A DNA stretch of 53,663 bases from an uncultured Bacteroidales bacterium (GTDB lineage Bacteria; Bacteroidota; Bacteroidia; Bacteroidales; Paludibacteraceae), in NCBI GenBank assembly GCA_903927945.1, contig CAIYOZ010000042.1, forward strand, positions 1 through 53,663, read 5' to 3'. The notes under the pieces were generated by a model that made no database searches, was not told the origin of the DNA, and saw nothing but the letters and a program-made list of their open reading frames with translations. How positions within the stretch are numbered: the first letter of the stretch is position 1; each line of letters begins with the position of its first letter. Both the position numbers and the translations under genes were made by a program. Below, piece after piece: positions 13,068 to 40,213 of this stretch.

Positions 13068-14630
13068 TCAATACTGTTGATGTTCAAGGACTGGATCGGA
13101 GGGTAGGTGTTCGCCGCTCTTTTGCTTTAGGACAACGCTCAGGGGTATATTCTTGATTTTGGCTTCTACCCAGGCGGTGAAGTCGAACACGCGCAGCAGC
13201 TGGAGCTCGAATTTGTTGTTGTGCAGTTCCAGGAGTTCGGGTTCTATCTTTACCCACAGGTTCAGCCGTTCCTTTTTGGAAAGGGTGTCGAGGGACTTGT
13301 TGAAGAGTTTCAGGATCAGGTGCTCGATCTGGTAGGTGCGTTCGTTGCTCTGGATATCGCGCCGTACCGACCGTGCTTCGGAGGCGATATAATCGTACTC
13401 GTTCAATTCGTACAACACCATCATGTTCACCAGCCTGATGGTTTTATACAGGGGCAGGGAATAAATGCTTTTCTCGCTGATCATCACCTGGGTGAGGCAT
13501 TTGCGGGCCCGCTTGAAATCCCGTGTGCCCAGATACACGAGGGCGGTGTAGAGCGTCAGTTGCACTTGCCGGGCGGCGGTCAGCAGGTCGGTATGGTCAT
13601 ACAAATCTTCCTTGTGGCGGTCGATCAATTCTTTGGCAGCTTCGAAATTCCCCCTGTCCAGGAAAGGGAACATCGTGTAGAGAAACACCACACACTGGAT
13701 CTGCATCCTGAAATGAGTGGATACCGTCACGATGTTGTTCAGCTGGTTGATGAAATAAGTCATCCCTTCATAATTGCGGATGGTGCGCAGGCTTTCCAGG
13801 ACACCCTCTATGGTCATCAGGTAATACATCGGGGGGTTGCTCAGCAGATGCTTGTTCTGTTCGAAGGTATTGTTCAGCTCGTAGAACGAGTGGAGCGCCG
13901 ATTTGTAGTCGCCCACATTGATCAGGTAATTCGATTGGAAGAGTTTATGCGTTTTCTGGGTTTCAAAGTTCTCGAACCCGAAGCTGGACACAATACTCAT
14001 TTCGCTAACTACCAGGTCGTTGAATTCCTGTTTTTGTTTGGTGGAACGCACCGTGCCCTTATAGAGGATACGGTGTTTGAGCAATTCGTACAGCGAGGCA
14101 TGTTCGTTGATCTTGCGGATCTTCTTGAGGGTATCGTTTATCCGGTACTGCTTGCTCAGCAGCTCATTCTCGGTGATATCCGGGAAATCAAGGCTCAGCA
14201 GGTAATCCAGCTCCATTTTGCGGGCAATGAGCAGGATGGAGAAATTCTCAAACTTCAGTGCTTCCTGCTGTACTCTGGCCAGCATCAGGAAACATTCCTT
14301 ATAAATGGACTTTTCATACAATACCTTCGCTTCCATCAACTGGTTGAACAATGAAAAAAAGTGATCCTGATTCCTCCGAAGCCGGGAGAGAATGGTGAGC
14401 AGCGTATCGAACAGGTAATTGATAGCGGTGTTCAATCCCACTTCTTTGCGGGACTTGATGAACTCTTCCTTGATGGCATCCCCGGAGGTGAGTCGGTTCT
14501 TTTCGATCAGTTTGTACAGGAAGACGTAATCGGCTTCATTTTCAACCACCCCGAATTCGGAGGAAATACTCTTCCGTTCCGATTTACTCAGGGAATTAAT
14601 AAGCATGATAAGCGAAGAGAACCTGGACAT
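13068..14630 (-). CDS. Roughly 520 aa all-helical (TPR-like) protein divergent from the ribokinase operon; candidate regulator
   Basis: Long helical repeat-like protein starting MSRFSSLIMLINSLSKSERKSISSEF; no signal peptide; divergent from rbsK-susCD. Confidence 0.75.
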   Translation of the reverse strand: MSRFSSLIMLINSLSKSERKSISSEFGVVENEADYVFLYKLIEKNRLTSGDAIKEEFIKSRKEVGLNTAINYLFDTLLTILSRLRRNQDHFFSLFNQLMEAKVLYEKSIYKECFLMLARVQQEALKFENFSILLIARKMELDYLLSLDFPDITENELLSKQYRINDTLKKIRKINEHASLYELLKHRILYKGTVRSTKQKQEFNDLVVSEMSIVSSFGFENFETQKTHKLFQSNYLINVGDYKSALHSFYELNNTFEQNKHLLSNPPMYYLMTIEGVLESLRTIRNYEGMTYFINQLNNIVTVSTHFRMQIQCVVFLYTMFPFLDRGNFEAAKELIDRHKEDLYDHTDLLTAARQVQLTLYTALVYLGTRDFKRARKCLTQVMISEKSIYSLPLYKTIRLVNMMVLYELNEYDYIASEARSVRRDIQSNERTYQIEHLILKLFNKSLDTLSKKERLNLWVKIEPELLELHNNKFELQLLRVFDFTAWVEAKIKNIPLSVVLKQKSGEHLPSDPVLEHQQY

Positions 14631-14836
14631 GATTATTTTTTCTGCAAGGATACAAATAAAGTTTCATATTTTATTACATGTTTGATAAAATTATGGCTGT
14701 AAATATAAATATTGTACTATTTTAATTATGTTATCTATCCTATAATCAGAAATATAGTGATAAATGACAAATATTTTATCTGTTTGAAATTGTTATAATG
14801 ACTTTATTGTTGTTTTTTTATCATTTAGAATCCAAT

Positions 14837-14844
14837 TATGTTTG
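14837..14844 (+). promoter_or_regulatory. Bacteroidota -7 promoter box upstream of ribokinase
   Basis: TATGTTTG matches TAnnTTTG exactly; GTTTG-TGTCAC-CAAAC palindrome overlaps it (14840-14855). Confidence 0.4.
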
Positions 14845-14900
14845 TGTCACCAAACAGGTAAACAGATTATCCAGAATTCTAATCTTTAATAATCCAGTCC

Positions 14901-15821
14901 ATGAGCTCAAAAAAGATCGTTGTTATAGGGAGTTGTAACACAGATATGGTGGTAAAATCGAACAGGTTACCGGTACCCGGAGAAACTGTCTTGGGGGGTG
15001 CGTTTATGATGAATCCGGGAGGTAAGGGAGCAAACCAGGCAGTGGCCATAGCGCGCCTGTCGGGAAATGTCACTTTCATTTGCAAGACGGGGAACGACCT
15101 GTTTGGCAGGCAATCCATCGAGATGTACAGCGAGGAAAATATCAATACCGAATATGTGTTTTCCGACCCGCAGCTGCCTTCGGGAGTAGCCCTGATCATG
15201 GTGGATACGAACGGTGAAAACTGCATTGCGGTAGCCTCGGGAGCTAACGGCAGTCTGAGCCCCCAGGACATTGACAAGGCAAAAGACATCATCGAAGCGG
15301 GCGATATCCTGTTAATGCAACTCGAGATACCCATGGAAACGGTGCAATATGCAGCCCGGCTGGCACACAGCAAAGGAATCAGGGTGATATTGAACCCGGC
15401 GCCAGCGGCATTCCTGCCTGATGAACTGTTGCGAAGCCTGTACGCCATCATACCGAATGAGAACGAAGCCGAAATGCTATCGGGTGTCAAGGTCTTCGAT
15501 TGGGAATCGGCACGCAAGGCAGCTGACCTGATTAGTTCGAAGGGTGTTGAAATCGTGGTGATCACCATGGGATCAAAGGGTGCCTTGATCAAGGAAGGAA
15601 CCGAATATCACGAAGTGCCGGTAGCCAAGATCAAGGCCGTGGATACCACCGCAGCAGGCGATACATTCTGCGGTGCATTGTGTGTGGCGATCTCCGAGGG
15701 GCAGTCGACACTGGAAGCCGTGAAATTTGCCAACCGGGCTGCGGGAATCACTGTGACACGTGAAGGGGCTCAGGCAGCGATTCCGTATAGGAAGGAATTG
15801 ACAATGACCCCAAGCCCCTAA
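14901..15821 (+). CDS. rbsK: Ribokinase
   Basis: PfkB motifs MNPGGKGANQAVAIARL and DTTAAGDTFCGALCVAISEG; VVIGSCNTDMVV N-terminus. Confidence 0.95.
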   Translation: MSSKKIVVIGSCNTDMVVKSNRLPVPGETVLGGAFMMNPGGKGANQAVAIARLSGNVTFICKTGNDLFGRQSIEMYSEENINTEYVFSDPQLPSGVALIMVDTNGENCIAVASGANGSLSPQDIDKAKDIIEAGDILLMQLEIPMETVQYAARLAHSKGIRVILNPAPAAFLPDELLRSLYAIIPNENEAEMLSGVKVFDWESARKAADLISSKGVEIVVITMGSKGALIKEGTEYHEVPVAKIKAVDTTAAGDTFCGALCVAISEGQSTLEAVKFANRAAGITVTREGAQAAIPYRKELTMTPSP

Positions 15822-16001
15822 AGGGGATGTGAAGAGGGGAGTTTATAGTTTATAGTTTATAGTCGGTAGTAAAGAAGTCGGTAGTAAGTGACAGACAATT
15901 AGGGTAGTAAGTTTATTTTTTTAATGAGAAAAGTGGAATTTAAAGTTTATAGAAACATAGGAGTAATTAGTTCTTAAACATCCCCTTTAGGGGCTTGGGG
16001 T
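15807..16001. repeat. 23-bp perfect inverted repeat flanking the rbsK-susC intergenic region
   Basis: ACCCCAAGCCCCTAAAGGGGATG (15807-15829) and CATCCCCTTTAGGGGCTTGGGGT (15979-16001) are exact reverse complements. Confidence 0.95.
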
Positions 16002-16028
16002 AATCACCTTAATCAACACATACATATT

Positions 16029-18983
16029 ATGAAACACAATCATCGAACTACACAACGAAAACCTTTTCTGTTGTTTTATTGCTGTCTGTTTTCCTTGTTT
16101 TTCACCAATACTATTTTTGCCCAGACATCGGAGGTGAAGGGTGTGGTGACGGATGAACAGGGAAATAAAATGCCCGGGGTAAATGTCATGATTGCCGGCA
16201 CTAGTAATGGTGTAGTGACCGACATTGATGGGATGTATCAGATACGCGTGCCGAATGAGAATGCACGACTGAAATTCTCCTTCATTGGGTACGCGATACA
16301 GGAAGTGGCTGTGAACAGGCAGAAGGTGATCAATATCACCCTGACGCAGGATGTGAAGACAATGGATGAAGTGGTGGTCATAGGCTACGGCAAGACGACC
16401 AAGAAGGAGGTGACAGGGTCTATCACTTCACTGAAGACTGAGGATTTCAATCAGGGTACTTTTACCGATCCGGCAGGGTTGATGCAGGGAAAGGTAGCCG
16501 GATTGTCGATAGTGAATCCAAACGGGAGCGATCCACAAGCAGGTTACGAAATAATACTACGTGGTACCAACACGCTTGAATCGGGACAAGGACCCTTACT
16601 GGTCATCGACGGCGTGATAGGAGGCGACATGAAAGACATCAACTTCCAGGAAGTGGAAACGATAGATATTCTGAAGGATGGCTCGGCTGCTGCTATCTAC
16701 GGTTCGCGGGGTACGAACGGGGTGATCATCATCACCACCAAGCGGGCTAAAAAAGGAAAAACAACTATAGAATATCAAGGACTTGTAACCTTTCAGGTGG
16801 CACCCCGGATGGTTCAAAACCTAACAGCAGGGGAATTCAGGGATGCTATTACCAAATATGCACCTTCCAAATCCGGAAGTATTTACGATGGTAATACCGA
16901 CTGGAATAAAGAAGTGACACGATCGAATCCTTTCAGTCAGAAACATAATCTGGCAATATCGGGTGGGACTGATCAGTTTTCACACAGAACCATCATTAAT
17001 GTGGAGCAGGACCAGGGTTTACTGAAAAATAATAACCTGAGCAAGATACTTGCCAGGACTAATATCCAACAAAAGGGCTTTGAGGGTTACCTGACCATCA
17101 ATTACAATGCTTTTTACTCCATGCGAAAATATAATCCTGCCGATTATGATATTTTTTATCAGGCATTCATTCATAACCCCACTGAACCAATTTATAGTAC
17201 TGCCGACCCTGCCACCGGAGGATATAATAAAGTGGATGGAATACAATATTATAATCCGGTTGCCATGTTAAAGGAAGGCAGCAAGAGTGGTGAAACCAAT
17301 GATTTTGGAGGAAATATCAGGGCTACACTGGATATCCCGGGAGTCAAAGGATTGAAATTCGATAATTTTTATTCGTACGAAAAATCCCGCTATGAATCGG
17401 ACCAGTACCTGACCAGGTATTACCCCAGTATCATAGGAACCAATGGAGAAGCCTCCATTCAGAACGGAGGCAGTTATAAATTGCAATATGAAAGTACGCT
17501 GAGTTATAGCGGTTCGTGGAACAGGCACACGATACAAGCCCTGGCCGGATATACGTATGAAGAGAATGGTGATAATTCCTCCGGCATGACGAATACCGGG
17601 TATGATACGGATATATTGGGTGCCAATAACATAGGATTAGGAACCGGATTATCGACAGGTACCGCCACCATGAATTCTTTCAGGGAAATGAGCAAGTTGA
17701 TCTCTTTCTTTGGAAGGGCGTTGTATAATTATGATGAAAAATACTTACTCTCTGCCTCGCTACGCCGGGAAGGATCTTCACGATTTGGATCAAATAATAA
17801 ATGGGGCTGGTTTCCGGCAGTCAGCCTGGGATGGCGGATGAACAAGGAAGAATTTATTAAGAATATCGACTGGATCAGTGATTTAAAACTCCGTGCCGGA
17901 TATGGAGCAACGGGGAATCAGGATTTTGGGAACTATAATTCGCTTGAATTGTTTAATGTGGCCGGTAAGTTCTATTATAACGGCCAGTGGATAAATTCCT
18001 ATAAGCCTACCCAAAATCCGAATCCTGATCTTCGCTGGGAGAAAAAGGAAGAAGTTAATCTGGGAGTTGATTTTTCATTCCTGAAGAATCGTGTGGGTGG
18101 TACAGTGGATTTATATTCCAGAAAGAGTACCGACTTGCTTTATATTTACAATGTTTCAGTTCCTCCGTTTGTGTACAACACCATATTTACCAACGTAGGA
18201 ATTATCAGTAACAAAGGTATTGAAATCACGCTGACAGGAGTTCCTGTACTTACGAAAAACTTCAAGTGGACTACTACGCTGACATTTAGTAAAAACAGCA
18301 ACATACTGGACAAATTTACGAATGCCGATTTTACAAATGGTTCTTATCAGGTCGGTTGGCTTTATGGAGATATCACCGTAAATACCCAACGATTACAACC
18401 GGGCAAGAGTATCGGTACTTTCTATGGTCCGGTATGGTTGGGAACTGATGCCACGGGTCACGATAAATTTAAAAACCAGGACAGTATAACAGGTGCAGTC
18501 GATCAAACCAAGTGGGAAGTGATCGGGCATGCCTACCCTGATTTTGTATTGGGCTGGAGTAATATCTTTACCTACAAACAATGGGATCTGGGATTTTCAT
18601 TGCGGGCATCCGTGGGTGGTAATATTATAAATACCTACCGGGTGTATTATGAGAATTTCACGATTATGGGATTAAAGAACATCGTGAAATCGCAACTGGA
18701 CCATCCTAATTTTATTGGTGATGCTGCTTATTCATCAAAATATGTTGAAGATGGATCGTATCTTAAACTGGATAATATCTCGATGGGATACAATATATCC
18801 ATCAAATCGAAATATATTTCAAAAATACGGGTGTACGGAGCAGCTCAGGACGTGTTCTGCCTGACTAAATATAAGGGGTTGAATCCGGAAGTTTCATTAA
18901 GCGGGTTATCACCGGGTATTGAAAATCTGACCTATTATCCTGTAACGACAGGATTGACTGTCGGTGTAAACGTGACATTTTAA
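16029..18983 (+). CDS. SusC/RagA-family TonB-dependent outer membrane transporter
   Basis: Carboxypeptidase-like N-domain, MDEVVVIGYGKTTKKEVTGS, GSAAAIYGSRGTNGVIIITTK, C-terminal GLTVGVNVTF. Confidence 0.96.
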   Translation: MKHNHRTTQRKPFLLFYCCLFSLFFTNTIFAQTSEVKGVVTDEQGNKMPGVNVMIAGTSNGVVTDIDGMYQIRVPNENARLKFSFIGYAIQEVAVNRQKVINITLTQDVKTMDEVVVIGYGKTTKKEVTGSITSLKTEDFNQGTFTDPAGLMQGKVAGLSIVNPNGSDPQAGYEIILRGTNTLESGQGPLLVIDGVIGGDMKDINFQEVETIDILKDGSAAAIYGSRGTNGVIIITTKRAKKGKTTIEYQGLVTFQVAPRMVQNLTAGEFRDAITKYAPSKSGSIYDGNTDWNKEVTRSNPFSQKHNLAISGGTDQFSHRTIINVEQDQGLLKNNNLSKILARTNIQQKGFEGYLTINYNAFYSMRKYNPADYDIFYQAFIHNPTEPIYSTADPATGGYNKVDGIQYYNPVAMLKEGSKSGETNDFGGNIRATLDIPGVKGLKFDNFYSYEKSRYESDQYLTRYYPSIIGTNGEASIQNGGSYKLQYESTLSYSGSWNRHTIQALAGYTYEENGDNSSGMTNTGYDTDILGANNIGLGTGLSTGTATMNSFREMSKLISFFGRALYNYDEKYLLSASLRREGSSRFGSNNKWGWFPAVSLGWRMNKEEFIKNIDWISDLKLRAGYGATGNQDFGNYNSLELFNVAGKFYYNGQWINSYKPTQNPNPDLRWEKKEEVNLGVDFSFLKNRVGGTVDLYSRKSTDLLYIYNVSVPPFVYNTIFTNVGIISNKGIEITLTGVPVLTKNFKWTTTLTFSKNSNILDKFTNADFTNGSYQVGWLYGDITVNTQRLQPGKSIGTFYGPVWLGTDATGHDKFKNQDSITGAVDQTKWEVIGHAYPDFVLGWSNIFTYKQWDLGFSLRASVGGNIINTYRVYYENFTIMGLKNIVKSQLDHPNFIGDAAYSSKYVEDGSYLKLDNISMGYNISIKSKYISKIRVYGAAQDVFCLTKYKGLNPEVSLSGLSPGIENLTYYPVTTGLTVGVNVTF

Positions 18984-19003
18984 TCCATTAAAAAATTAAG
19001 ATC

Positions 19004-20521
19004 ATGAAAATAATAATATTTACAGTGTTGCTTCTATCGACACTTTTTATAGGAAGCTGTACTGATTTAACGGAAACCGTCTATTCAGACCTTTCAGTAG
19101 ATCAATTTTTCACGAGCGAGCAAAATCTTTTACTGAATGCCGGTAGGGCTTATACGCTATTACAACCCTATCCTGAAGAACAGAAATTATGGGCACTGGT
19201 AACAGTCAGTTCAGACGAATGCGTTATTTGTACCCTGGCAGATGGCAGCTGGTATGACGGAGGACGTGATGATGAAATGAAAAAACATAACGTCACCACT
19301 TCCAATAAGATCAACCGGCTGGCATGGGAATATGTGTTTGGTGGTATTGCCGGTTGCAATGAAGTTCTCTACGAAACGGAGAGTTCAAAGTTTAATTTTG
19401 CCGGTAAAGATAAAATTGTAGGTGAAATCAAAGTTTTACGGGCATTATTCTACTATTGGGGAATGGATACCTGGGGTGATATACCCTTTTCGACAGATTT
19501 TACCTCTAAAACATTACCCGTCAAGAAATCACGTGCTTTTATCTATAATTTCGTCGAAAAGGAAATTAAAGATAATCTATCCTTACTTGATTCCACGGTT
19601 GCCGGTACAAATTATGGGCGTGTAACCAAAGGGTTGGCCTATACACTGTTGGCTAAATTATACCTGAATGCAAATGTATGGATAAACACTCCGCGATGGG
19701 CAGAAGCCGAACAAATGTGTGATAAGGTCATTGCCCTTGGTCAGTACAAACTCGAAGATAACTACTTTAATAACTTCGCGATTAAGAATGAAACTTCCAA
19801 GGAAAACATTTTTGTGATCGTGAATAATTCTCTCTTGACCCATAGTTTCTACTGGTATGATCTGACATTGAGCCCATTGAGTAAGAAGACATTTGCCACG
19901 AAGGAAACACCCTGGGATGGATACATTTGTCCACCGGATTTCTTCAACTCTTATTCGAACAATGATTTGAGGAAGAAGTCGTGGTTATACGGACAACAAT
20001 ATGATATTAATGGTAATAAATTATTCGAAATAGCAAAGAAAGATACCAACTGGTTTGTCTATAATCCAATTTTCCCTGAATCAGCTTACAAAGGCCGTAA
20101 TAAATGGGATGGTGCCCGTATGATCAAGTATCCATTTCAAACTGATGGATTAATCATGGGGACCCTGGACATGGACAATGACTTTGTATTGTTCAGGTAT
20201 GCCGATGTGGTGATGATGAAAGTAGAAAGCATGATGCAACAGGGTAAGACTACAGAGGCTACCCAATTGGCAGATTTTCAGAAGATACGTACCAGAGCAG
20301 GCATGCCACCTTACACTGCTGATCAACTCACCATGGATGAATTGCTGGCAGAGCGTGGTCGTGAATTTGTATGGGAAGGACACCGCCGGCAGGACTTAAT
20401 TCGATTTGGCAAATGGAACAATGCCTGGTATGCAAAACCTGTTACGACTACTGATCAGGTATTTCCCATTCCACAAACTGTACTGGACACAAATCCCGGT
20501 TTAGCCGGACCTCCTCAATAA
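19004..20521 (+). CDS. SusD/RagB-family surface glycan-binding lipoprotein
   Basis: Lipobox FIGSC; LRALFYYWGMDTWGDIPF; LLAERGREFVWEGHRRQDLIRFGKW; VFPIPQTVLDTNPGL. Confidence 0.96.
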   Translation: MKIIIFTVLLLSTLFIGSCTDLTETVYSDLSVDQFFTSEQNLLLNAGRAYTLLQPYPEEQKLWALVTVSSDECVICTLADGSWYDGGRDDEMKKHNVTTSNKINRLAWEYVFGGIAGCNEVLYETESSKFNFAGKDKIVGEIKVLRALFYYWGMDTWGDIPFSTDFTSKTLPVKKSRAFIYNFVEKEIKDNLSLLDSTVAGTNYGRVTKGLAYTLLAKLYLNANVWINTPRWAEAEQMCDKVIALGQYKLEDNYFNNFAIKNETSKENIFVIVNNSLLTHSFYWYDLTLSPLSKKTFATKETPWDGYICPPDFFNSYSNNDLRKKSWLYGQQYDINGNKLFEIAKKDTNWFVYNPIFPESAYKGRNKWDGARMIKYPFQTDGLIMGTLDMDNDFVLFRYADVVMMKVESMMQQGKTTEATQLADFQKIRTRAGMPPYTADQLTMDELLAERGREFVWEGHRRQDLIRFGKWNNAWYAKPVTTTDQVFPIPQTVLDTNPGLAGPPQ

Positions 20522-20563
20522 GAAATAATTGATCTATATGAAAGATTCATTAAAAAACTCTTT

Positions 20564-22546
20564 ATGAAAACAAAAGTATTATTATTCATCATACTCTTTG
20601 CTGGAATCTTTTTCTCCATGAATGTATCGGCAAAAAAGATCTCCGTGGCGGAACTCCGTGACAAGATTGCCGGGGCATGGATAGGCGAAATGATCGGGAA
20701 CATCTATGGGCTGCCTTTTGAAAATAAGAATGTCCTGGTACCCGGCTCGGATGAAAAATGGCCGTTAGGCTATACCAAGAACCTTGACAAGCTGGCAAAG
20801 ACCGGAGGAGCCTTTTCGGATGATGATACCGACTTTGAATATATCTACCTGATGCAAATGGAAAAATGGGGTTGCGAACCTACCTATGCCCAGTTGCGGG
20901 ATGCGTGGATGTACCATGTGCGCGATAAGGTATGGCTGGCCAACAGGGCTGCATTGGGACTCATGCATCATGGTTTTACACCTCCCTTTACCGGGATGAA
21001 GGAAAACAATCCGCACTGGTTCCAGATAGATCCCCAGTTGATCAATGAAATTTGGGGCTATACCGCACCGGGAATGATAAACTATGCCGTGGAGAAGTCC
21101 GATTGGGCAGCCCGTATTACCAGTGACGGATGGGGCGTGGAACCGACTATGTTCTACGGGGCATTATATTCGAATGCATTCTTTGAAAAGAACATTGAAA
21201 AACTGGTGGCAGAAGCGTTAAAACATCTGCCTGTGAACAGTCGGTATGCACAGACAGTCAAAGATATGGTTGACTTGTATCATTCCTATCCGAAAGACTG
21301 GAAGAAGGCACGTCAGGAGATGGCCACGAAATACTATATCAACGAAGACCCTATGACTAAAACTATCTGGAATGCAAACCTGAACGGGGCGTGTGGCATA
21401 CTGGCATTGCTCTATGGAAATGGTGACTTTCAGCGCACCATGGACCTGGCCTGTTCGATAGGATTCGATTGTGATAACCAGGCTGCCACCATGGGAGGTT
21501 TGTTGGGCGTCATGTATGGGGCGGAAGTACTGCCAAAAGCATTGTCATGCCCCATTCAAGGATGGACAAAACCGTTCAACGACCGGTATATCAATATCAC
21601 GCGGTACGACATGCCCGATGCGAGTATATCGGATATGATCGACCGGACGGTGAAGCAAGCCATCATTGTGGTGAGCAAGAACGGGGGTAAACTGGTGAAA
21701 CAGGATGGGAAAGATTACCTGCAAATCAATGAAAATGCAAAATTCAATGCACCTCTTGAATTTTACGTAGGGCCGAATCCAATACTGGAAGTTGGAAAAC
21801 CCATGGTATTTACCTACTATACGAAAGCAAATCAACAATACAACTGGAAATTAAAATCAGGGAACCTTCCCAAAGGAATTGCTTTTGAAAAGGGTAAAAT
21901 TATCGGAACCCCTGAAACGGCAGGCAAATATGAAATTGTATTGACACTGGATAACGGGAAGAAGACCATCGAAAAGTCATTCGAAATCCTGGTGCGTACA
22001 CCGAACATTGCATTAAAAGCCGATACCATTTATACCAATGTACGTACGCTGAATACGGCTGTACTTGATTCGTGCTGGTACACTTTTGGGAAACCAATGT
22101 ATGCCACATCGGTATCCGTCATAAACGATGGTGTTTTGAATGGCACAGGCTCGGTATTCTATTCCCTGGGGGCGAAAGCAAAACTGCCAAAGGTCGATTA
22201 TTTCGGTTATGGATGGAAGGAAGCGAAGACCATCAATATGATGGCCTTGCATACAGGCTGCCTGGAAGAATTTGGAGGGTGGTTCACGTCGCTGAATATA
22301 CAATACCAGGATGAAAACGGGAAATGGATCCCGGTGCCGAAATATACAAGCACACCGGCATTACCTGCCACTGATATTGTTTTCTTTCAACCTCATTTTG
22401 TGGAATTTGTATTTGAATTTGAACCTGTCAGGACAAAAGCTATCCGGATACTCGATGATACCAAAGTGCAGGATCACTGGAATAAGTATACAAAAAACGT
22501 ATCGGCATTTACTTCGATTACGGAGTTGAGCGTCTATGAGAAATAA
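20564..22546 (+). CDS. ADP-ribosylglycohydrolase family protein with He_PIG-type Ig domain and discoidin-like C-terminus
   Basis: DKIAGAWIGEMIGNIYG, FSDDDTDFEYI, GFDCDNQAATMGGLLGVMYG; LKSGNLPKGIAFEKGKIIGTPETAGKYEIVL is He_PIG-like. Confidence 0.88.
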   Translation: MKTKVLLFIILFAGIFFSMNVSAKKISVAELRDKIAGAWIGEMIGNIYGLPFENKNVLVPGSDEKWPLGYTKNLDKLAKTGGAFSDDDTDFEYIYLMQMEKWGCEPTYAQLRDAWMYHVRDKVWLANRAALGLMHHGFTPPFTGMKENNPHWFQIDPQLINEIWGYTAPGMINYAVEKSDWAARITSDGWGVEPTMFYGALYSNAFFEKNIEKLVAEALKHLPVNSRYAQTVKDMVDLYHSYPKDWKKARQEMATKYYINEDPMTKTIWNANLNGACGILALLYGNGDFQRTMDLACSIGFDCDNQAATMGGLLGVMYGAEVLPKALSCPIQGWTKPFNDRYINITRYDMPDASISDMIDRTVKQAIIVVSKNGGKLVKQDGKDYLQINENAKFNAPLEFYVGPNPILEVGKPMVFTYYTKANQQYNWKLKSGNLPKGIAFEKGKIIGTPETAGKYEIVLTLDNGKKTIEKSFEILVRTPNIALKADTIYTNVRTLNTAVLDSCWYTFGKPMYATSVSVINDGVLNGTGSVFYSLGAKAKLPKVDYFGYGWKEAKTINMMALHTGCLEEFGGWFTSLNIQYQDENGKWIPVPKYTSTPALPATDIVFFQPHFVEFVFEFEPVRTKAIRILDDTKVQDHWNKYTKNVSAFTSITELSVYEK

Positions 22547-22734
22547 GTCCGTCCAATCCACAGGTGAGAGATAAGCCGGAAAATAGGAAATATAGTTTTA
22601 GAAGGTTGTTTAAGGTTGAATGCTGTGAAAATTATCTGACCTCTTCCCCTGCCCCCTCTACAAGGGAAAGGGGAACTGAGGACCCGGATAAATGAGTATA
22701 CTGAAAGGTCGATTTTTATAATAACTAGAATTCC

Positions 22735-24357
22735 ATGATAAAAAAAATACTGTTTACATTCATCATTCTATTCCTGTCATTCGCTGTATCCTCTGAGAAC
22801 AGCAAGCTGTCACAGGTGACGGAAAAGAAACTTTCGAAACAGGCACTGCTCGACAAGATCAAAGGAGGCTGGGCGGGACAGACCATTGGGGTAGTGTACG
22901 GAGCACCTACTGAATTTAATTTTCAGGGCACGACCATTCAAAACTACCAGCCATTACCCTGGTATGAAGGAATCGTAAAATACTGGTGGGAAAAGAAGCC
23001 CGGCTTGTTTGATGATATTTACAATGACCTGACTTTTGCCGAAACGTTTGACAAGAAAGGGCTCGATTGTTCGATGGATACTTTGGCAGCTCATTTTGCC
23101 AGACCCGAATACCATTTGGCCCATGCCAACCAGGCAGCCAGGTACAACCTGCGCCACGGGATCATGCCACCTGCCTCGGGGAATTGGATGAACAATCCCC
23201 ATGCCGATGATATTGACTTTCAGATTGAAGCTGATTTTATAGGGCTCATGTCTCCCGGAATGATCAACCAGACGATGGACCTAGCCAACCGGGTGGGGCA
23301 TATTATGAACAGCGGTGATGGCTTTTATGGGGGTGCTTTTATATCGGGCCTTTACTCCACTGCTTTTGTATCTGATGATATTGCCGATATTATCCATACA
23401 GCACTGTCAACTATTCCAAAGGAAAGTCAATTTAACCAATGCATCAGTGACGTCATCAACTGGCATAAACTGTATCCTGATGATTGGGAGCGGTGTTGGT
23501 TTGAGCTTCACAAAAAGTGGAACAAAGATGTAGGTTGCCCGAAAGGGGTATTCCTGAGTTTTAATATCGACTCAAAAATAAACTCGGCCTACATTGCACT
23601 CGCCCTGCTTTACGGGAACGGCGATTATTCAAAGACACTGGAGATCGCAGTTCGTTGCGGACAGGATACCGATTCAAACGCCAGTCCGATAGGAGGAATC
23701 CTGGGGGTCATGAAAGGTTATTCGGGAATCCCGGCGTTCTGGTTGAACCCGTTAAAGGAAATTGAAGCCCTGAATTTCGAGGGAATGGATATTTCATTGA
23801 ATAAAGCCTATGAAATGAGCAACCGGCATGCCCTGGAACTTATACGCAAAAATGGAGGGAAGATACAGGGTGATGAAATTCACATTAAGCTTCAACAGCC
23901 TGCAGTGCTTCCCCTGGAACAGAATTTCGTGAAAACGATACCAATATGCCGCGACCGGAAAGATTGCTTTTTTACGGACCAATATACGTTTGATTTTAAG
24001 GGTAACGGTTTTGTGGTATACGGGAACCTGGTTTCTACCAGACATGTCACTGCCGATTATATCAACCGGGTATCCACCAGGCATATTGGTTCGGAGGTCT
24101 TTGGACTGGGTGAACCAACCGACCCCTACATTGCCCGTATGGAAGTATGGATTGATGGAAAGTTAGATAATACGGTTGAACTGCCCATGAAGAATACCTC
24201 CCGAAGATTGGAACCGGCCTGGAAATATCTCCTCCCTGAAGGGAAGCATCACGTAATATTGAAATGGTTGAACCGTGATCCGGTTTATTTGATACGGATC
24301 AATGACATTATTTATTATTCTGAAAATCAATTGCCCGATAAGTATTATCATAATTGA
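22735..24357 (+). CDS. ADP-ribosylglycohydrolase family protein (paralog 2)
   Basis: DKIKGGWAGQTIGVVYGAPTEF, LFDDIYNDLTF, CGQDTDSNASPIGGILGVMKG. Confidence 0.88.
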   Translation: MIKKILFTFIILFLSFAVSSENSKLSQVTEKKLSKQALLDKIKGGWAGQTIGVVYGAPTEFNFQGTTIQNYQPLPWYEGIVKYWWEKKPGLFDDIYNDLTFAETFDKKGLDCSMDTLAAHFARPEYHLAHANQAARYNLRHGIMPPASGNWMNNPHADDIDFQIEADFIGLMSPGMINQTMDLANRVGHIMNSGDGFYGGAFISGLYSTAFVSDDIADIIHTALSTIPKESQFNQCISDVINWHKLYPDDWERCWFELHKKWNKDVGCPKGVFLSFNIDSKINSAYIALALLYGNGDYSKTLEIAVRCGQDTDSNASPIGGILGVMKGYSGIPAFWLNPLKEIEALNFEGMDISLNKAYEMSNRHALELIRKNGGKIQGDEIHIKLQQPAVLPLEQNFVKTIPICRDRKDCFFTDQYTFDFKGNGFVVYGNLVSTRHVTADYINRVSTRHIGSEVFGLGEPTDPYIARMEVWIDGKLDNTVELPMKNTSRRLEPAWKYLLPEGKHHVILKWLNRDPVYLIRINDIIYYSENQLPDKYYHN

Positions 24358-24365
24358 GAAACAAT

Positions 24366-25922
24366 ATGAAAAAATTAATTCTGTACATTTCGCTATGTTC
24401 TTTCATGGCAAGTATATGCCCACTAATGAATGCCACCAATTTGACTTACGATAAGCCAGTAACGCTATCATTGGATGTTATAAAGGATAAAATAAAAGGA
24501 GGTTGGGCAGGTCAGACCATTGGATGTACGTATGGTGGTCCGACAGAATTCAAATACCGGGGTGCCATGATAAATGAAAAGACACCGGTCATCTGGTATG
24601 ATGATTATCTAAAAGATACATTTGCAGCCGATCCGGGACTGTATGATGATGTGTACATGGATATGACCTTTGTGCAGGTCATGGATCGCTTAGGGTTGGA
24701 TGCACCTGTTGATTCATTTGCAATGGCCTTTGCCAATGAGAACTACAAACTATGGCATGCCAATCAGGCAGCACGCTATAATATCCTGAAGGGTATCATG
24801 CCCCCCGCCTCGGGAAACTGGATCAATAATCCACATGCCGACGACATTGATTTTCAGATAGAATCAGACTTTATCGGGTTAATGTGTCCCGGAATGCTAA
24901 AGACTGCTTCTGCTATTTCCGATCGCATTGGCCATATTATGAATTATGGGGATGGCTGGTATGGAGGAGTCTACACGGCATCGTTATACAGTCTGGCATT
25001 TATAACGAATGATATTCCTGAAATTGTGAGTGAAGCGTTGAAAAGCATACCTCCTAAAAGCAAATTCAGGCTTTGCATTGAAGATGTCATCCGGTTGCAT
25101 AAAGAATATCCGGGGGATTGGAGGAGTTGCTGGTTTGAGGTTGAGAAGAATCATTCATTCGAAATCGGATGTCCTGAAGGAGTATTCAATGCCTTCGACA
25201 TTGATGCCACCCTCAATTCGGCGTATGTGACCATGGGGTTATTATATGGCGAAGGTGATTTCTATAAAACGATGGACATTACCACCCGAAGCGGCCAGGA
25301 TTCAGATAGCAACCCTGCAGTGGTAGCCGGAATATGGGGAGCCATTTTTGGGTATAGCAGAATTCCTGATTATTGGAAAAAAGGGTATGAAAAAATAGAG
25401 GAAGTAAATTTCCCTTATACCAAAATCACCTTGTCGAAGGTGTATGCCATGAATTTGAAAAACCTCCGGGAATTGGTGGTGAAGAATGGTGGAAAAGCAG
25501 ATGCAATATCCATGACACTAATACCGCAACGGCCGGTTGAAGTGCGATGGGAGCAATCTTTTACCGGACATTTCCCTACAGAGAGAAGAGTCATCAACAA
25601 GGAATTTCATGGAGAGCCTATTGTTATTCACTTTGATGGAAATGCCATCGTGGTCATGGGAAATATAAAACAGCTGCAACCCGACAACAGTAATTATGTG
25701 GCCACCCTGGAAGCCTGGATAGATGGCAAAAAAACGGATACTTTCAAAATGCCTTTCGATTATATAAAGCGAAAATATGATATTTTCTACACTTATAATC
25801 TGGAGAACGGACCCCATTCCCTGGAGATCAAATGGATGAATCCCCACGATAAATATGATATTTTGACAAAAGATGCGGTCATTTATTCAAACAAAGCACG
25901 TACAAACGTTCGATTATATTGA
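24366..25922 (+). CDS. ADP-ribosylglycohydrolase family protein (paralog 3)
   Basis: DKIKGGWAGQTIGCTYGGPTEF, LYDDVYMDMTF, SGQDSDSNPAVVAGIWGAIFG. The ORF-track start 24354 is TTG; ATG 24366 preferred (signal peptide). Confidence 0.88.
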   Translation: MKKLILYISLCSFMASICPLMNATNLTYDKPVTLSLDVIKDKIKGGWAGQTIGCTYGGPTEFKYRGAMINEKTPVIWYDDYLKDTFAADPGLYDDVYMDMTFVQVMDRLGLDAPVDSFAMAFANENYKLWHANQAARYNILKGIMPPASGNWINNPHADDIDFQIESDFIGLMCPGMLKTASAISDRIGHIMNYGDGWYGGVYTASLYSLAFITNDIPEIVSEALKSIPPKSKFRLCIEDVIRLHKEYPGDWRSCWFEVEKNHSFEIGCPEGVFNAFDIDATLNSAYVTMGLLYGEGDFYKTMDITTRSGQDSDSNPAVVAGIWGAIFGYSRIPDYWKKGYEKIEEVNFPYTKITLSKVYAMNLKNLRELVVKNGGKADAISMTLIPQRPVEVRWEQSFTGHFPTERRVINKEFHGEPIVIHFDGNAIVVMGNIKQLQPDNSNYVATLEAWIDGKKTDTFKMPFDYIKRKYDIFYTYNLENGPHSLEIKWMNPHDKYDILTKDAVIYSNKARTNVRLY

Positions 25923-25924
25923 TT

Positions 25925-27511
25925 ATGAAAAGGGTAACAGGCTCATACACTCTGATGTGTACAACGATTTTGCTTTTTGCAGTTGTTGTATCACTGTCAG
26001 CATGTACCGTACAAAAGCCTGAACCAATTGTGATCAACATTGTCAGGTATGGGGCGAGTATTTCGTTCCAGAGCAAGATACTGAAACGTACCATGCACTA
26101 TTCTATTTATTTGCCCGAAAAATACACGCGTGATAAGAAATATGCATCTGTCTATTTGCTGCATGGCTATGACGGGAATGAAACCGATTGGATGAAGGAT
26201 GGTGAAATTAATCTGACCATCAATGATTTTGAAAAGAGGGGGCTGATTGATCCCATGATTTATATCATGCCGCAGGGAGATAACAGTTATTATGTCAATG
26301 CCTATGACGGTACCGCGGACTATATGCGCATGATCACTGAAGAATTGGTGCCATTGATTGATGGTTCATATTCCACCGTGAAAGATAGAAATCACCGGGC
26401 AGTAGTTGGTTTTTCGATGGGTGGATATGGTGCATTGATACTGCCGGTAAAGAATCCGGGTTTGTTTTCAGTAGCAGCACCACTCAGTATGTCGTTCCGT
26501 ACCGATGCGCAATATTTAAATGAACCTCAATCAGTATTTGATGTCCAATGGGGACCTATATTCGGAGGGAAAGGAACCTCCGGGAATAACCGGTTGACTG
26601 ATTATTTCAAACAGAACAGTCCTTTTCATTTTTTTGCATTGCAAGAAGCAAGTGCATTCGATTCAATACATTATTTTATCGATTGCGGGGATGACGAGGA
26701 GACTTTATCCATCACGAACAATGCCATGCACGCGATCATGCGAAGTAAGAACATACCTCATGAATACAGGATGAGAAACGGTGCCCATACGTGGGATTAC
26801 TGGCGCTCGGCTATGACGGAAGTGTTACCTTATATTCAATCCTGTTTTACCGGGGTTGCATATCCCAAAGAAACAGGGTTGAGTACCTCCGAAGTCTTTT
26901 CGGGTACCATGACACAACAGACAGTTTCGGGAATTACCCTGAACATTTGCTTGCCTCTCAATTATATGACGTCGGGAATGAACTATCCAACCGTCTATTT
27001 TTTCCATGATGTGGAAAACAACCGTACTTCGGAAACAAATAAACTGGCCGCCGTGCTGGATTCATTACAAAAAGCTGTTCCCTTTATCCTGGTGGAATTG
27101 AACGCACACGATGTGGATGCAACGACTGTCAATTTCAACACTATCCTTACCTATATCGATCAAACATATCGCACGAAACTAAACAGTTATAACCGCATTG
27201 GCATTGGGAATAAGACAGGTGGGAAAGTTCTTTACAATGTAATCCTTGGAACCCCTGAATTCATGAATGTGGCATTTCTTTTTGATGCTTCATTGGGTAG
27301 CTCGTTTGAACCGCCCGTTGGGGGATACCTGTACCTGGATTGTCCGGATGACGGACTGAATTATGATAGCATGCAATTACTGTATTCTCTTTGCCGGGAC
27401 CGGAATATCTCCAATGAATTCAGGGTACGGAATGGACTTGACACCTACAATTCATTTTTACAGGGCGTTAAAAGCAGTACAGAAACTTTGGGTTATAAAT
27501 TGAATATATGA
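25925..27511 (+). CDS. Esterase D-like alpha/beta hydrolase lipoprotein, two hydrolase domains (C-terminal one degenerate)
   Basis: Lipobox SLSACTV; YLLHGYDGNETDW, VVGFSMGGYGAL; second domain YPTVYFFHD, GIGNKTGG. Confidence 0.85.
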   Translation: MKRVTGSYTLMCTTILLFAVVVSLSACTVQKPEPIVINIVRYGASISFQSKILKRTMHYSIYLPEKYTRDKKYASVYLLHGYDGNETDWMKDGEINLTINDFEKRGLIDPMIYIMPQGDNSYYVNAYDGTADYMRMITEELVPLIDGSYSTVKDRNHRAVVGFSMGGYGALILPVKNPGLFSVAAPLSMSFRTDAQYLNEPQSVFDVQWGPIFGGKGTSGNNRLTDYFKQNSPFHFFALQEASAFDSIHYFIDCGDDEETLSITNNAMHAIMRSKNIPHEYRMRNGAHTWDYWRSAMTEVLPYIQSCFTGVAYPKETGLSTSEVFSGTMTQQTVSGITLNICLPLNYMTSGMNYPTVYFFHDVENNRTSETNKLAAVLDSLQKAVPFILVELNAHDVDATTVNFNTILTYIDQTYRTKLNSYNRIGIGNKTGGKVLYNVILGTPEFMNVAFLFDASLGSSFEPPVGGYLYLDCPDDGLNYDSMQLLYSLCRDRNISNEFRVRNGLDTYNSFLQGVKSSTETLGYKLNI

Positions 27512-29079
27512 GCACGAAAAAGACAGTGATATGGATACTCTTGCTTTTTGCATGTTCAGTACATGCAGAAGAGTTTCGTGTGCAAGAGAATCTGTCATTT
27601 AAGAGTTCCATTTTAAACATGGAGATCGGATATTCAATTGTGCTGCCGAATGATTATTTTACGAGTGGAAAATCATATCCTGTCCTCTATTTCCTGCATG
27701 GGTTGGGTGATAACGATGCCTCGTGGCTTGAATACGGGCAGGTAACCCAATATATGGATCACCTGGTGAACGAACATATCATCTCTCCATTTATCTGTGT
27801 CATGCCCCAGGGGTTCAGAAGTTATTATTCCAACTTTTATACAGGAGATTTCCCCTATCAGGATATGTTTGTCCGGGAATTGGTTCCATTTATCGATAGC
27901 AATTACCGAACGATTCGCACAGCCGGAGAACGTGGTGTCATGGGATATTCCATGGGTGGGTTCGGAGCATTGGTTTTGCCCCTTAAATATCCCGATATAT
28001 TCCATGTGAGCATTCCATTGAGTGCCTCCATTCGAACGGACCATCAATATGCCACCGAAGAACAAAAGGGTTGGGACCAGCAATGGGGGAAGATTTTCGG
28101 TGCCGAACACAACACAGGAGATGCCCGGATCACTGATTATTACAAGCAAAATTCACCTTACCATCTCATCAAATCCATGAAAGCTGAAGACCTTAGAAAA
28201 ATCGCCTTTTTTATGGAAAATGGTGACAAGGAAAACACCCTTTGCCGGAGCAACGAAGATCTGCACATGTTGATGGTCGAAAAAGATATTCCTCATGTCT
28301 ACCATGTCAGGGCCGGAGCCCATGAGTTTAAGTTCTGGTGCGAAGCAATTCCCGAAGCTTTTCGTTTTGCCGATTGTTCATTCACTAATAAACCTTATAA
28401 AGAAGCTGAAACATTCGAAGATACGACTGTTTCTCAAAGACAACTGTTTTGGAAAGAAGAAGCTACTTTTTCCGGTAGGAAACTAAGTATCTTCTACCCT
28501 GAAAATCCAATATCAGTAAAACGTAATTACCCGACTGTTTATTTTGTATCCAGCCTGGACAAGGAAGATCAGGAGAAGCTCATTTCCCTTTATCAGCAGG
28601 ATTTACAGAAAGAACTGCTCGCTCCGATCATATTTTGTTTTGTGCAACCCGATCCGGATAGTTTGTTTCTCCGTAATGTCATACAATATATGGAAAAGAA
28701 CAAATCCTCCCGGGAAGGACGACGATTCAGGGCAGTGTGGAGCTATCAAAACGGGGGAGCTAATGTATTGGAACAGGCATTAACACCGGATCAATTTACA
28801 GCTTGTGTGTTTACGGATTCAAACCTGCAAATAAAGTTGCCAGGCCTTGAACAACTCATCGCAGACCACGAATCCATCAAGGATAATATCCGGTGGTATA
28901 TTGATACTCCTCCATCAGGGGATTCCTATTTGGCGAATGGTTATCTGCATATAAACCTGAGAGAACATGGATTTATTCATGAATACAGGGTTCGTCATAA
29001 CTATAAAGATGACTTTTCATTCTTACTGTCGGGATTTTCACCGGCCATATCGTATGTGAGCAAGAGATTTCATAATTAA
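27508..29079 (+). CDS. Esterase D-like alpha/beta hydrolase, two hydrolase domains (C-terminal one degenerate)
   Basis: YFLHGLGDNDASW, VMGYSMGGFGAL; second domain YPTVYFVSS, VWSYQNGGA; ATGA overlap with the previous gene. Confidence 0.85.
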   Translation: MSTKKTVIWILLLFACSVHAEEFRVQENLSFKSSILNMEIGYSIVLPNDYFTSGKSYPVLYFLHGLGDNDASWLEYGQVTQYMDHLVNEHIISPFICVMPQGFRSYYSNFYTGDFPYQDMFVRELVPFIDSNYRTIRTAGERGVMGYSMGGFGALVLPLKYPDIFHVSIPLSASIRTDHQYATEEQKGWDQQWGKIFGAEHNTGDARITDYYKQNSPYHLIKSMKAEDLRKIAFFMENGDKENTLCRSNEDLHMLMVEKDIPHVYHVRAGAHEFKFWCEAIPEAFRFADCSFTNKPYKEAETFEDTTVSQRQLFWKEEATFSGRKLSIFYPENPISVKRNYPTVYFVSSLDKEDQEKLISLYQQDLQKELLAPIIFCFVQPDPDSLFLRNVIQYMEKNKSSREGRRFRAVWSYQNGGANVLEQALTPDQFTACVFTDSNLQIKLPGLEQLIADHESIKDNIRWYIDTPPSGDSYLANGYLHINLREHGFIHEYRVRHNYKDDFSFLLSGFSPAISYVSKRFHN

Positions 29080-29105
29080 ATTAATTACCATTAAAACACA
29101 AAATT

Positions 29106-30113
29106 ATGTTCATTGTTGAAAATTATTCGTTGGCTGTAATGTTTTGCATTGTCACTATGCTTTGTTGGGGTTCATGGGGTAACACACAGAAACTGGCGGC
29201 AAAGACCTGGCGTTACGAACTATTCTATTGGGATTACGTCATTGGGATTGTCCTTTTCAGTCTGATATTGGGATTTACCCTGGGAAGTTTTGGTGAAGGG
29301 GGACGATCGTTCATCATGGATCTGAAACAAGCAGATTCGAGCAATATCTGGAGTGCTATAGTGGGTGGGATTGTATTTAATGCAGCCAACATACTGCTAT
29401 CGGCTTCCATTTCTATCGCTGGGCTGGCAGTGGCTTTTCCATTGGGGGTAGGCATAGCCTTGGTGCTGGGAGTCTTTGTGAACTATTTCAATGCGCCCAA
29501 GGGTGATCCTGTGATCCTGTTTACCGGGGTAGCACTCATCACGCTGGCTATTATTTTTAATGGCATTGCAGCCGGTAAAATTAAAAAAGACGACAAAGGG
29601 ACTTCAAATCAAAAGGGAATCGTACTAGCTGTCTTTGCAGGGTTGTTGATGGCCTTCTTCTATAGGTTTGTGGCAGCCTCGATGGACCTGAACAACTTTG
29701 AACATCCGGCAGCAGGGATGTTGACCCCCTATGCTGCCTTCTTTATTTTTGCCCTGGGGATACTGGCAAGTAATTTTGTATTCAACTCCCTGATTATGAT
29801 GAAACCATTTGTGGGAGCTCCTGTCAGGTACAAGGATTATTTTAACGGAAATTTAAGGACTCACCTGATTGGCGTACTCGGTGGGACTATCTGGGCCCTG
29901 GGTACTTCGCTGAGTTATATTGCTGCGGGAAAGGCCGGTGCTGCCATATCCTATGCATTGGGACAGGGAGCCACCATGATTGCTGCCATTTGGGGCGTAT
30001 TTATCTGGAAGGAATTTAAAGGTGCTTCGAAACAGATAAACGGACTCTTGGCTCTCATGTTTTTATTATTCATTACCGGACTTATCCTGATTATCGTTTC
30101 CGGAGGAAATTAA
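29106..30113 (+). CDS. GRP/RhaT-like (DMT superfamily) sugar transporter, probable ribose transporter
   Basis: 10-TM pattern; MLCWGSWGNTQKLA, FNAANILLSASISIAGLAVAFPLGVGIALVLG; co-directional with ribokinase and SusCD. Confidence 0.8.
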   Translation: MFIVENYSLAVMFCIVTMLCWGSWGNTQKLAAKTWRYELFYWDYVIGIVLFSLILGFTLGSFGEGGRSFIMDLKQADSSNIWSAIVGGIVFNAANILLSASISIAGLAVAFPLGVGIALVLGVFVNYFNAPKGDPVILFTGVALITLAIIFNGIAAGKIKKDDKGTSNQKGIVLAVFAGLLMAFFYRFVAASMDLNNFEHPAAGMLTPYAAFFIFALGILASNFVFNSLIMMKPFVGAPVRYKDYFNGNLRTHLIGVLGGTIWALGTSLSYIAAGKAGAAISYALGQGATMIAAIWGVFIWKEFKGASKQINGLLALMFLLFITGLILIIVSGGN

Positions 30114-30169: not shown

Positions 30170-31438
30170 ATGAAAAAGAATTATTCTTTATCGCTGGTTA
30201 CCGCAATTGGCTTAATGTTTTTAGGAACAATTCAGGCATTTGCAGTGGATTACACCATTTCGTTTACGGGTACCGGGAAAAGTACCACCGTAGGGAGTGT
30301 AATCGTTCAGAATCTTACAAAAGGTACTACGGCTACAGTGCCGGGCGGGAGTTCTTTAACCCTGACCGTTGTAGCCGGACTCGATCAACTGGTAGCAGAT
30401 AAAGGCGGTCTGCGTATTTATTCGAACGCAGTGGATGGAAACTCCACCGTACTATTCATGGCTAAGAATTCAGGAAGCACTCAAATTAGCGCCTATGGAT
30501 TGGATGGTCGAAAAATCGTAGGAAGGACTGAAAACTTACTGGCAGGTCAAAACTCCTTTCAGGTTTCATTACAAAAAGGTGCTTATTTTGTTCGGGTAGA
30601 TGGCGTAGGATATTCCTTCGCTGCCAAACTGATCAATCAGAGCAGTTCGAAAAGCAACCCTCAGATTACTATGTTAGCCACTGGAAATGGAGGATCGCCG
30701 GTGATGCAAAAAAGCAAAAGTACAGCCACTGCCATGGATTACACCATCGGTGATCAATTGCTTTATAAGGGAATTTCAGGAAATTATGCCACCATAGTGA
30801 CGGATATTCCAACAGCCAGCAAGACCGTGAATTTCAATTTTATTGAATGCCTGGATGCCGATGGTAACTACTACGCAGTGGTTAAAATAGGTACGCAGAC
30901 CTGGATGGCGGAAAACATGAGAACCACAAAATACAGGACCGGTACTATTCCGAATATCACAGTGGCTGCTGATTGGGGAAACACGACTTTGGTGACAGGT
31001 GCCTGGTGCTACCTCAATGGAGATGCGACCAATAATACCCGCATTGGCAAATTATACAACTGGTTTGCCGTCAATGACACCCGGAATATTGCTCCGGTAG
31101 GTTGGCATGTCCCAAGTATAGTTGAATATACTACGTTAGGTACGTTTTTAGGTGGTTTTGATGTTGCCGGATTAGCTATGAAGGAAACCGGAACGACAAA
31201 CTGGTTAACAGACGCCTTTGGGAGTACAAATTCAAGCGGCTTCTCTGCCAGGGCAAGTGGCAAGTGCAATAGCAGTGGCGTCATGAACGATTTTGACTAT
31301 AACTACTTGTGGACAAATGTTGAGTTTAGTGCTACGAATGGTACCTGTGCATTTTTGGCAGGACCTAACGCTAATTTTGATATTACCTATAGTCCCGGTA
31401 AACGGAATGGTTTCTCACTTCGTTGCATCATGGATTAG
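30170..31438 (+). CDS. FISUMP-domain (Fibrobacter succinogenes major paralogous domain) secreted protein
   Basis: VVKIGTQTWMAENMRTTKYRTG, GKLYNWFAVND, PVGWHVPSIVEYTTL, NGFSLRCIMD. Confidence 0.85.
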   Translation: MKKNYSLSLVTAIGLMFLGTIQAFAVDYTISFTGTGKSTTVGSVIVQNLTKGTTATVPGGSSLTLTVVAGLDQLVADKGGLRIYSNAVDGNSTVLFMAKNSGSTQISAYGLDGRKIVGRTENLLAGQNSFQVSLQKGAYFVRVDGVGYSFAAKLINQSSSKSNPQITMLATGNGGSPVMQKSKSTATAMDYTIGDQLLYKGISGNYATIVTDIPTASKTVNFNFIECLDADGNYYAVVKIGTQTWMAENMRTTKYRTGTIPNITVAADWGNTTLVTGAWCYLNGDATNNTRIGKLYNWFAVNDTRNIAPVGWHVPSIVEYTTLGTFLGGFDVAGLAMKETGTTNWLTDAFGSTNSSGFSARASGKCNSSGVMNDFDYNYLWTNVEFSATNGTCAFLAGPNANFDITYSPGKRNGFSLRCIMD

Positions 31439-31477
31439 TCATTCAATGAAATGAAAAGTTATATCAACTGAATACAG

Positions 31478-31517
31478 GAAAGTTAACTGATAATCTATCA
31501 GTTGACTTTCTTTTATT
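31478..31517 (+). terminator. Rho-independent terminator
   Basis: GAAAGTTAACTGATA-ATC-TATCAGTTGACTTTC then TTTTATT. Confidence 0.75.
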
Positions 31518-32816: not shown

Positions 32817-32844
32817 AATCCACAGATTGAAAAAAGGAGTAAAT

Positions 32845-38757: not shown

Positions 38758-38800
38758 TGATAAGTGATTAACGATAAGTGATAAATGTTAAATGTTAAAA
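38757..38800. repeat. GTGATWA/ACGATAAG short-word repeat after the MFS stop codon
   Basis: Near-tandem GTGATTAGTGATAAGTGATTAACGATAAGTGATAAATG; a related stretch lies at 40100-40190. Confidence 0.7.
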
Positions 38801-38928
38801 GTGCTATATTAAAATTTGGTGGTTTTAAATGATCGAAAATATAGGAGACGATGGTAATTACACATCCCCTTCAGGGGTTTGGGGTTATTATTATTAATTA
38901 TAAATTATGAATTGTCAATTATTAAGCT

Positions 38929-40101: not shown

Positions 40102-40190
40102 CGATAAGTGATAAGTGATTAACGATTAGTGATTAACAAATAAGGATGAATGAAAAGTGATTAACGATTAACAAAAGATGAATAGTGATT
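40100..40190. repeat. GTGATWA/ACGATAAG short-word repeat after the oxidoreductase stop codon
   Basis: ACGATAAGTGATAAGTGATTAACGATTAGTGATTAAC ... AGTGATTAACGATTAAC ... AGTGATTAA. Confidence 0.7.
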
Positions 40191-40213
40191 AATTTTAAAT
40201 GATTATCGCTAAT

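Follow-up and report, generated by a model that had tools for sequence, protein, structure and literature searches.

The window analysed here is a contig of 53,663 nucleotides from an uncultured Bacteroidales bacterium (CAIYOZ010000042.1). It carries a ribose utilisation (rus) type locus at 13068-30113, followed by genes for a citrate-type transporter and a citrate lyase-like enzyme. We propose, with a confidence that falls a little short of even, that the locus is specialised for a ribofuranosyl conjugate or glycan carrying ester-linked citrate or a close di- or tricarboxylic acid. The layout is symmetrical: the putative ribosidases go with a ribose transporter and a ribokinase, the esterases with a citrate-type transporter and a lyase. 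One substrate yielding two products is the simplest reading. The draft assembly of the source genome comprises 4.47 Mb in 450 contigs and is 97.7% complete.

Ten open reading frames make up the locus, as seen from the open reading frame list and family profile searches. A preliminary description of this DNA had named a 520-amino-acid protein, a ribokinase, SusC, SusD, three ADP-ribosylglycohydrolase-family proteins (ARH1 to ARH3), two esterases (EST1 and EST2) and a GRP-like transporter. All ten were recovered at the same positions, in the same order and on the same strands:

13068-14630, reverse strand: rusR-type protein (BT2802 family ribose utilization protein; NF058569, 626 bits, cut-off 550)
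14901-15821, forward strand: ribokinase, rbsK (TIGR02152, 376.7 bits, cut-off 299.65; PF00294)
16029-18983, forward strand: SusC-like TonB-dependent transporter (TIGR04056, 739 bits)
19004-20521, forward strand: SusD-like surface lipoprotein (PF07980, 86.6 bits)
20564-22546, forward strand: ARH1, secreted ARH-fold protein with Ig-like and CBM32-like C-terminal domains (PF03747, 104.8 bits; PF05345)
22735-24357, forward strand: ARH2, secreted ARH-fold protein with a C-terminal extension (PF03747, 129.6 bits)
24354-25922, forward strand: ARH3 (PF03747, 125.9 bits)
25919-27511, forward strand: EST1, two-domain lipoprotein esterase (PF00756, 134 bits, residues 52-305)
27508-29079, forward strand: EST2, secreted esterase with the two-domain layout of EST1 (PF00756, 114 bits, residues 33-286)
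29106-30113, forward strand: rusT, GRP/DMT-type sugar transporter of the inner membrane (PF07168, 78 bits; PF06800, 32.7 bits)

Judged by its gene families, the locus is of the rus type, as had been suggested: RusR, ribokinase and RusT cluster together with SusC/SusD, which identifies a ribose system. The strongest single item is the RusR-family protein. It is encoded by a single-copy gene in the source genome and passes the NF058569 cut-off, as do ten RusR-like proteins of relatives. All three ARHs exceed the PF03747 gathering score of 26.2 bits; one further, canonical PF03747 gene lies elsewhere in the source genome. The related loci contain 67 rusT homologues. Several 4-nt overlaps had also been described between the genes. 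The EST1/EST2 overlap (ATGA) is the sole firm one in the block, and those of ARH2/ARH3 and ARH3/EST1 depend on TTG starts (at 24354 for ARH3). Counted from the first in-frame ATGs, at 24366 for ARH3 and 25925 for EST1, they become gaps of 8 and 2 nt. The intergenic stretch 22600-22712, checked as a possible repeat, is single copy in the genome.

Genome contigs were scanned with ARH3, and 80 loci were obtained. The order rusR-rbsK-susC-susD-ARH1-ARH2-ARH3-EST1-EST2-rusT is kept in most loci that have ARH1 and ARH2. It is found in Bacteroidales, Cyclobacteriaceae, Flammeovirgaceae and Ferruginibacter and, within Flavobacteriia, in Gelidibacter and Lutibacter, and the nearest loci of the same arrangement come from sequences labelled Paludibacter sp. 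or Bacteroidales. Chance is far from explaining an arrangement that turns up again in four lineages of the phylum. In rumen and gut Bacteroidales, the block lacks EST2. Parabacteroides and others carry a simple type with rusR, rbsK, ARH3 and rusT, to which a nucleoside hydrolase is often added. To reduce bias, ARH1 alone was also searched for in 247 genomes of the order, and all five close homologues outside the window sit in the same block. One of these contigs (L121) ends inside rbsK, and rusT was undetected there by the scan. Loci unrelated to the block hold more divergent ARH1 homologues (38-44%).

The citrate genes lie just outside the ten-gene block and were not part of the preliminary description:

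31476-31512, forward strand: terminator-like hairpin ahead of the cit genes, which it separates from the rus block (17-pair stem with 4 G-C pairs, T-rich tail; consensus scan only)
31602-32816, forward strand: citE-like lyase subunit with a fused CitD-like acyl-carrier domain (PF03328, 159 bits; PF06857, 55.7 bits)
32827-34407, forward strand: citF, citrate lyase alpha-type subunit (TIGR01584, 531.6 bits, cut-off 501.45)
34481-35764, forward strand: CitMHS-family citrate transporter (TIGR00784, 538.9 bits, cut-off 259.7)

The same linkage is found in relatives. A DASS or CitMHS gene, with or without citE/citF, follows the block in L008, L012, L016, L018-L021, L024-L026, L034 and L036, and downstream linkage of the cit genes is seen in the window, L008, L016 (Ferruginibacter sp. 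HRS2-29) and L143. The cit genes lie inside the cluster in Cyclobacteriaceae (L138), Flammeovirgaceae (L150), Gelidibacter (L147; G. salicanalis PAMC21136, also L028) and Lutibacter (L149). Here rusR is followed by DASS-citE-citF-rbsK-susC-susD-ARH1-ARH2, and the gap from citF to rbsK is 221-651 nt. DASS and CitMHS are unrelated families that interchange at the same position, and citrate is a known type of substrate for both. Among the genomes searched with ARH1 alone, all five loci outside the window (L012/L117, L120, L121, L156 and L157) adjoin a DASS or CitMHS gene; in L156, a CitMHS copy 78% identical to that of the window stands after rusT and the lipoprotein gene. A cit gene is present in at least 20 of the 32 EST2-positive loci, some of which are covered by short stretches, compared with none of the 28 loci without ARH1/ARH2, a few of which are contig fragments. 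The cit genes, with their linkage to this block in other lineages too, suggest that the acid held in ester linkage is citrate-like. In the citF tree, the linked genes branch at several positions, a pattern suggesting that the linkage arose, or was lost, more than once.

From this gene content we infer the enzyme specificities, the ribose–citrate ester and the order of steps that follow. The SusC/SusD pair, together with an accessory lipoprotein in most relatives, would carry the conjugate over the outer membrane. EST1 and EST2, acting at the surface or in the periplasm, would cleave ester linkages, and ARH1, ARH2 and ARH3, with the metal site kept and the canonical ADP-ribosyl-binding loop gone, would hydrolyse successive ribofuranosyl linkages. 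Ribose would be imported by RusT and converted by RbsK to ribose-5-phosphate. The freed acid would enter through CitMHS or DASS and be split by the CitE/CitF lyase, and RusR is presumably the substrate sensor. In its boldest form, the proposal holds that the substrate is a natural ribofuranosyl-citrate ester conjugate or glycan not yet described, so common in freshwater, marine, sludge and gut settings that it sustains a system of its own throughout the phylum Bacteroidota, and that ARH1-3 are new glycan-active ribofuranosidases derived from ADP-ribosyl hydrolases. We consider this form possible but rather doubtful.

Several observations weigh against a citrate ester as the substrate. No ribose–citrate ester or glycan was found described in the literature searched. 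The hairpin before citE parts the rus block from the cit genes in the window. Near relatives at about 70% identity (L005-L007) have the block and no CitF over the cut-off, and the rumen and gut loci without EST2 show no cit linkage. Many Bacteroidales keep citE/citF elsewhere in the genome, with the transporter alone adjacent. CitF over the cut-off occurs in 26 of 42 triple-ARH genomes versus 1 of 24 others; it is also common in the order (101/247 genomes, 41%), and with the window left out its co-occurrence has a p of about 0.01, which is weak alone. It was therefore dropped as stand-alone evidence, and the argument rests on physical linkage. The acid itself may not be citrate. The window CitE is under the TIGR01588 cut-off (258 vs 443.4 bits), and CitG, which makes the prosthetic group of classical citrate lyase, was not found in the 97.7% complete source genome. 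It is likewise absent in all 12 relatives with CitF of the window type and present in all four with classical CitF. Since this CitF type comes without CitG, the CitEF lyase may work with a different cofactor, or its substrate may be a related acid, for instance citramalate. The divergent CitF proteins are full length, with about 435-486 bits to PF04223, and the attachment serine of the carrier domain (RSD motif) is kept in 21/21 sequences.

The main rival to a citrate ester is the use of free citrate beside a differently acylated riboside. The substrate would then be a ribofuranosyl glycan bearing common acyl groups such as acetyl or feruloyl. EST1/EST2 would de-acylate it, ARH1-3 would release ribose, and citrate would be a separate, co-regulated molecule of the same food source. 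We regard this as plausible, if on balance doubtful. Both esterases belong to PF00756, and the solved structures nearest to EST2 are feruloyl-type esterases (7xrt/7xrv). Loci that do without linked cit genes, namely L005-L007 and those of the rumen, fit this rival, as does the hairpin before citE. Conversely, it does not readily account for cit genes placed inside the cluster, in the rusR-rbsK interval, in four lineages, or for a citrate-type transporter that adjoins the block at all five loci from the sampling of the order and at no locus without ARH1/ARH2. An acylated ribosyl substrate as such, which had been put forward in the preliminary description, is suggested by the enzyme set. The 'double esterases' described there do have a two-domain layout, and the first domain holds a full catalytic triad, invariant in EST1 (S166/D258/H290, 61/61) and in EST2 (S148/D240/H272, 33/33). 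The second domain is a degenerate, diverged alpha/beta-hydrolase copy: PF00756 matches the N-terminal half alone in both proteins, and the nucleophile position of the second domain has no conserved serine. Two active domains per esterase were therefore rejected.

The SDDDT motif is invariant in 55/55 ARH1 sequences, and DDxYxD is found in 51/51 ARH2 and 85/85 ARH3 sequences. The late DxD motif is invariant in all three sets (55/55, 51/51 and 85/85), and the acidic residues of the first site are kept in altered form. By motif counts, the glycine-rich loop GNG[A/S]xMR, which we take to lie at the ADP-ribose site of the known ARH3/DraG enzymes, is found in 0 of 191 rus-type ARHs, compared with 10 of 11 canonical PF03747 proteins. 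In a MAFFT alignment, the canonical loop lines up with an FQI[E/D]-containing stretch that is largely conserved in the rus-type ARHs. The loop comparison uses these two approaches, as hhalign of ARH1-3 with canonical ARHs aligned them in part only. AlphaFold models of ARH1 and ARH3 (mean predicted local distance difference test score 79 each) match ARH3/DraG folds, with low confidence in the loops in question, and the ARH1 model additionally resembles CBM32 domains. ARH1 is likely to be a glycan-bound ribosidase. ARH2 is 43% identical to the window ARH3. Since ARH3 is the sole ARH of simple rus loci, it is probably the core rus hydrolase (RusGH type), with ARH1, ARH2 and the esterases as an added set. 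A lipobox-like signal occurs in 42/57 SusD homologues and is also common in those of ARH2, ARH3 and EST1; it is rare in EST2 homologues (1/32), and the window EST2 has an ordinary signal peptide, judged by eye. Given these signals, the ARHs and esterases are probably exported.

These properties bear on the substrate first proposed for the locus, an ester-linked or O-acyl ADP-ribose (protein Glu/Asp-ADP-ribose, O-acetyl-ADP-ribose or poly-ADP-ribose). Membership of all three proteins in PF03747, the match of the ARH1 and ARH3 models to ARH3/DraG structures and the conserved acidic metal-site residues would be compatible with it. The proposal fares poorly, however, and we now consider it improbable. 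The ADP-ribose loop is missing, ARH1 ends in Ig-like and CBM32-like domains, and a profile search of the locus proteins found no Nudix enzyme, pyrophosphatase, phosphatase or nucleotidase; together these argue against ADP-ribose, which would also leave the citrate link unexplained. General scavenging of nucleosides or RNA fragments with duplicated broad-range hydrolases is less probable still: although the locus shares its core genes with the simple rus type, a nucleoside hydrolase is found in 11/29 loci without ARH1/ARH2 versus 1/55 triple-ARH loci, and nucleoside release offers no role for esterases.

A further gene of the block is variable. A DUF4595-type lipoprotein gene is conserved after rusT in triple-ARH loci (for example L025:15961-16734; 42/55 loci), and its product is a candidate surface binder of the locus substrate. 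No DUF4595-type lipoprotein was found in the window, and the position that it holds in most relatives is occupied by another gene:

30170-31438, forward strand: FISUMP-domain protein with a type IX secretion system sorting motif (PF09603, TIGR04183)

Other gene clusters were noted in the window and in the scanned contigs. Downstream of the cit genes, a separate cluster (36440-41941) encodes a GH130-type mannoside phosphorylase, an MFS transporter, a Gfo/Idh/MocA dehydrogenase and a 580-amino-acid protein without a Pfam match. A mosaic rus locus (L043:405-13911) has rusR, a co-oriented ARH1, a different SusC/D pair, rbsK, ARH3 and rusT, without ARH2 or esterases. After the triple-ARH block of a Paludibacter metagenome-assembled genome (L006:14951-18468), we recognised by eye a 637-amino-acid heparinase II/III-type-like lyase and a sulfatase, possibly part of the next polysaccharide utilization locus (PUL). 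Short ARH1 homologues with 38-41% identity lie in non-rus clusters (L122:9521-10777 and L106:11521-12777), the former beside apparent GH92, CocE-like esterase, GH2 and acylase genes, again by eye. This suggests that ARH-fold enzymes occur in other glycan systems too.

If the citrate-ester proposal is correct, ribose and a citrate-like acid are named as the two products of a substrate for which our literature searches turned up no description, and the 'ribose PUL' becomes a concrete hunt for a molecule. Some 'ADP-ribosylglycohydrolase' annotations in Bacteroidota PULs would then denote ribofuranosidases acting on glycans or conjugates rather than enzymes of ADP-ribose signalling. The parts that a specialist would not expect are the proposed connection of ribose with citrate and the absence of the ADP-ribose loop.

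The components of the locus can be compared with known systems. Like citrate lyase CitDEF, the window has a CitF that passes TIGR01584 and a CitE with a fused CitD-like carrier domain; unlike it, CitE is under its cut-off, and CitG is missing from the genome and from 12 relatives of this type. EST1 and EST2 share the catalytic N-terminal domain with its Ser-Asp-His triad with CE1-type feruloyl/acetyl esterases (PF00756; 7xrt, 7xrv, 5vol), yet they are fused to a second, degenerate domain and lie in a ribose locus. The window ARHs share the fold and the acidic metal-site motifs of the PF03747 ADP-ribosyl hydrolases ARH3, DraG and Tri1. They differ in being secreted, in having SDDDT or DDxYxD in place of TDD[TS], in lacking the GNGxxMR loop and in their added beta domains. 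Simple rus loci of Parabacteroides, Prevotellaceae and Bacteroides (L045-L054, L067, L073) have rusR, rbsK, ARH3 (52-55% identity) and rusT in common with the window type, whereas they have no ARH1, ARH2, EST1, EST2, DUF4595 lipoprotein or cit genes and frequently include a nucleoside hydrolase. The published parent system is reportedly the rus locus of Bacteroides thetaiotaomicron, BT2802-BT2809, said to have been described by Glowacki et al. in Cell Host Microbe in 2020 along with a survey of rus variants with diverse enzymes. Like that locus, the window encodes a RusR-family protein, a ribokinase, SusC/SusD, an ARH-family hydrolase and a GRP-type ribose transporter. In contrast to it, the window has one ribokinase and no nucleoside hydrolase, and it adds two extra ARH families, two esterases and linked citrate transporter and lyase genes.

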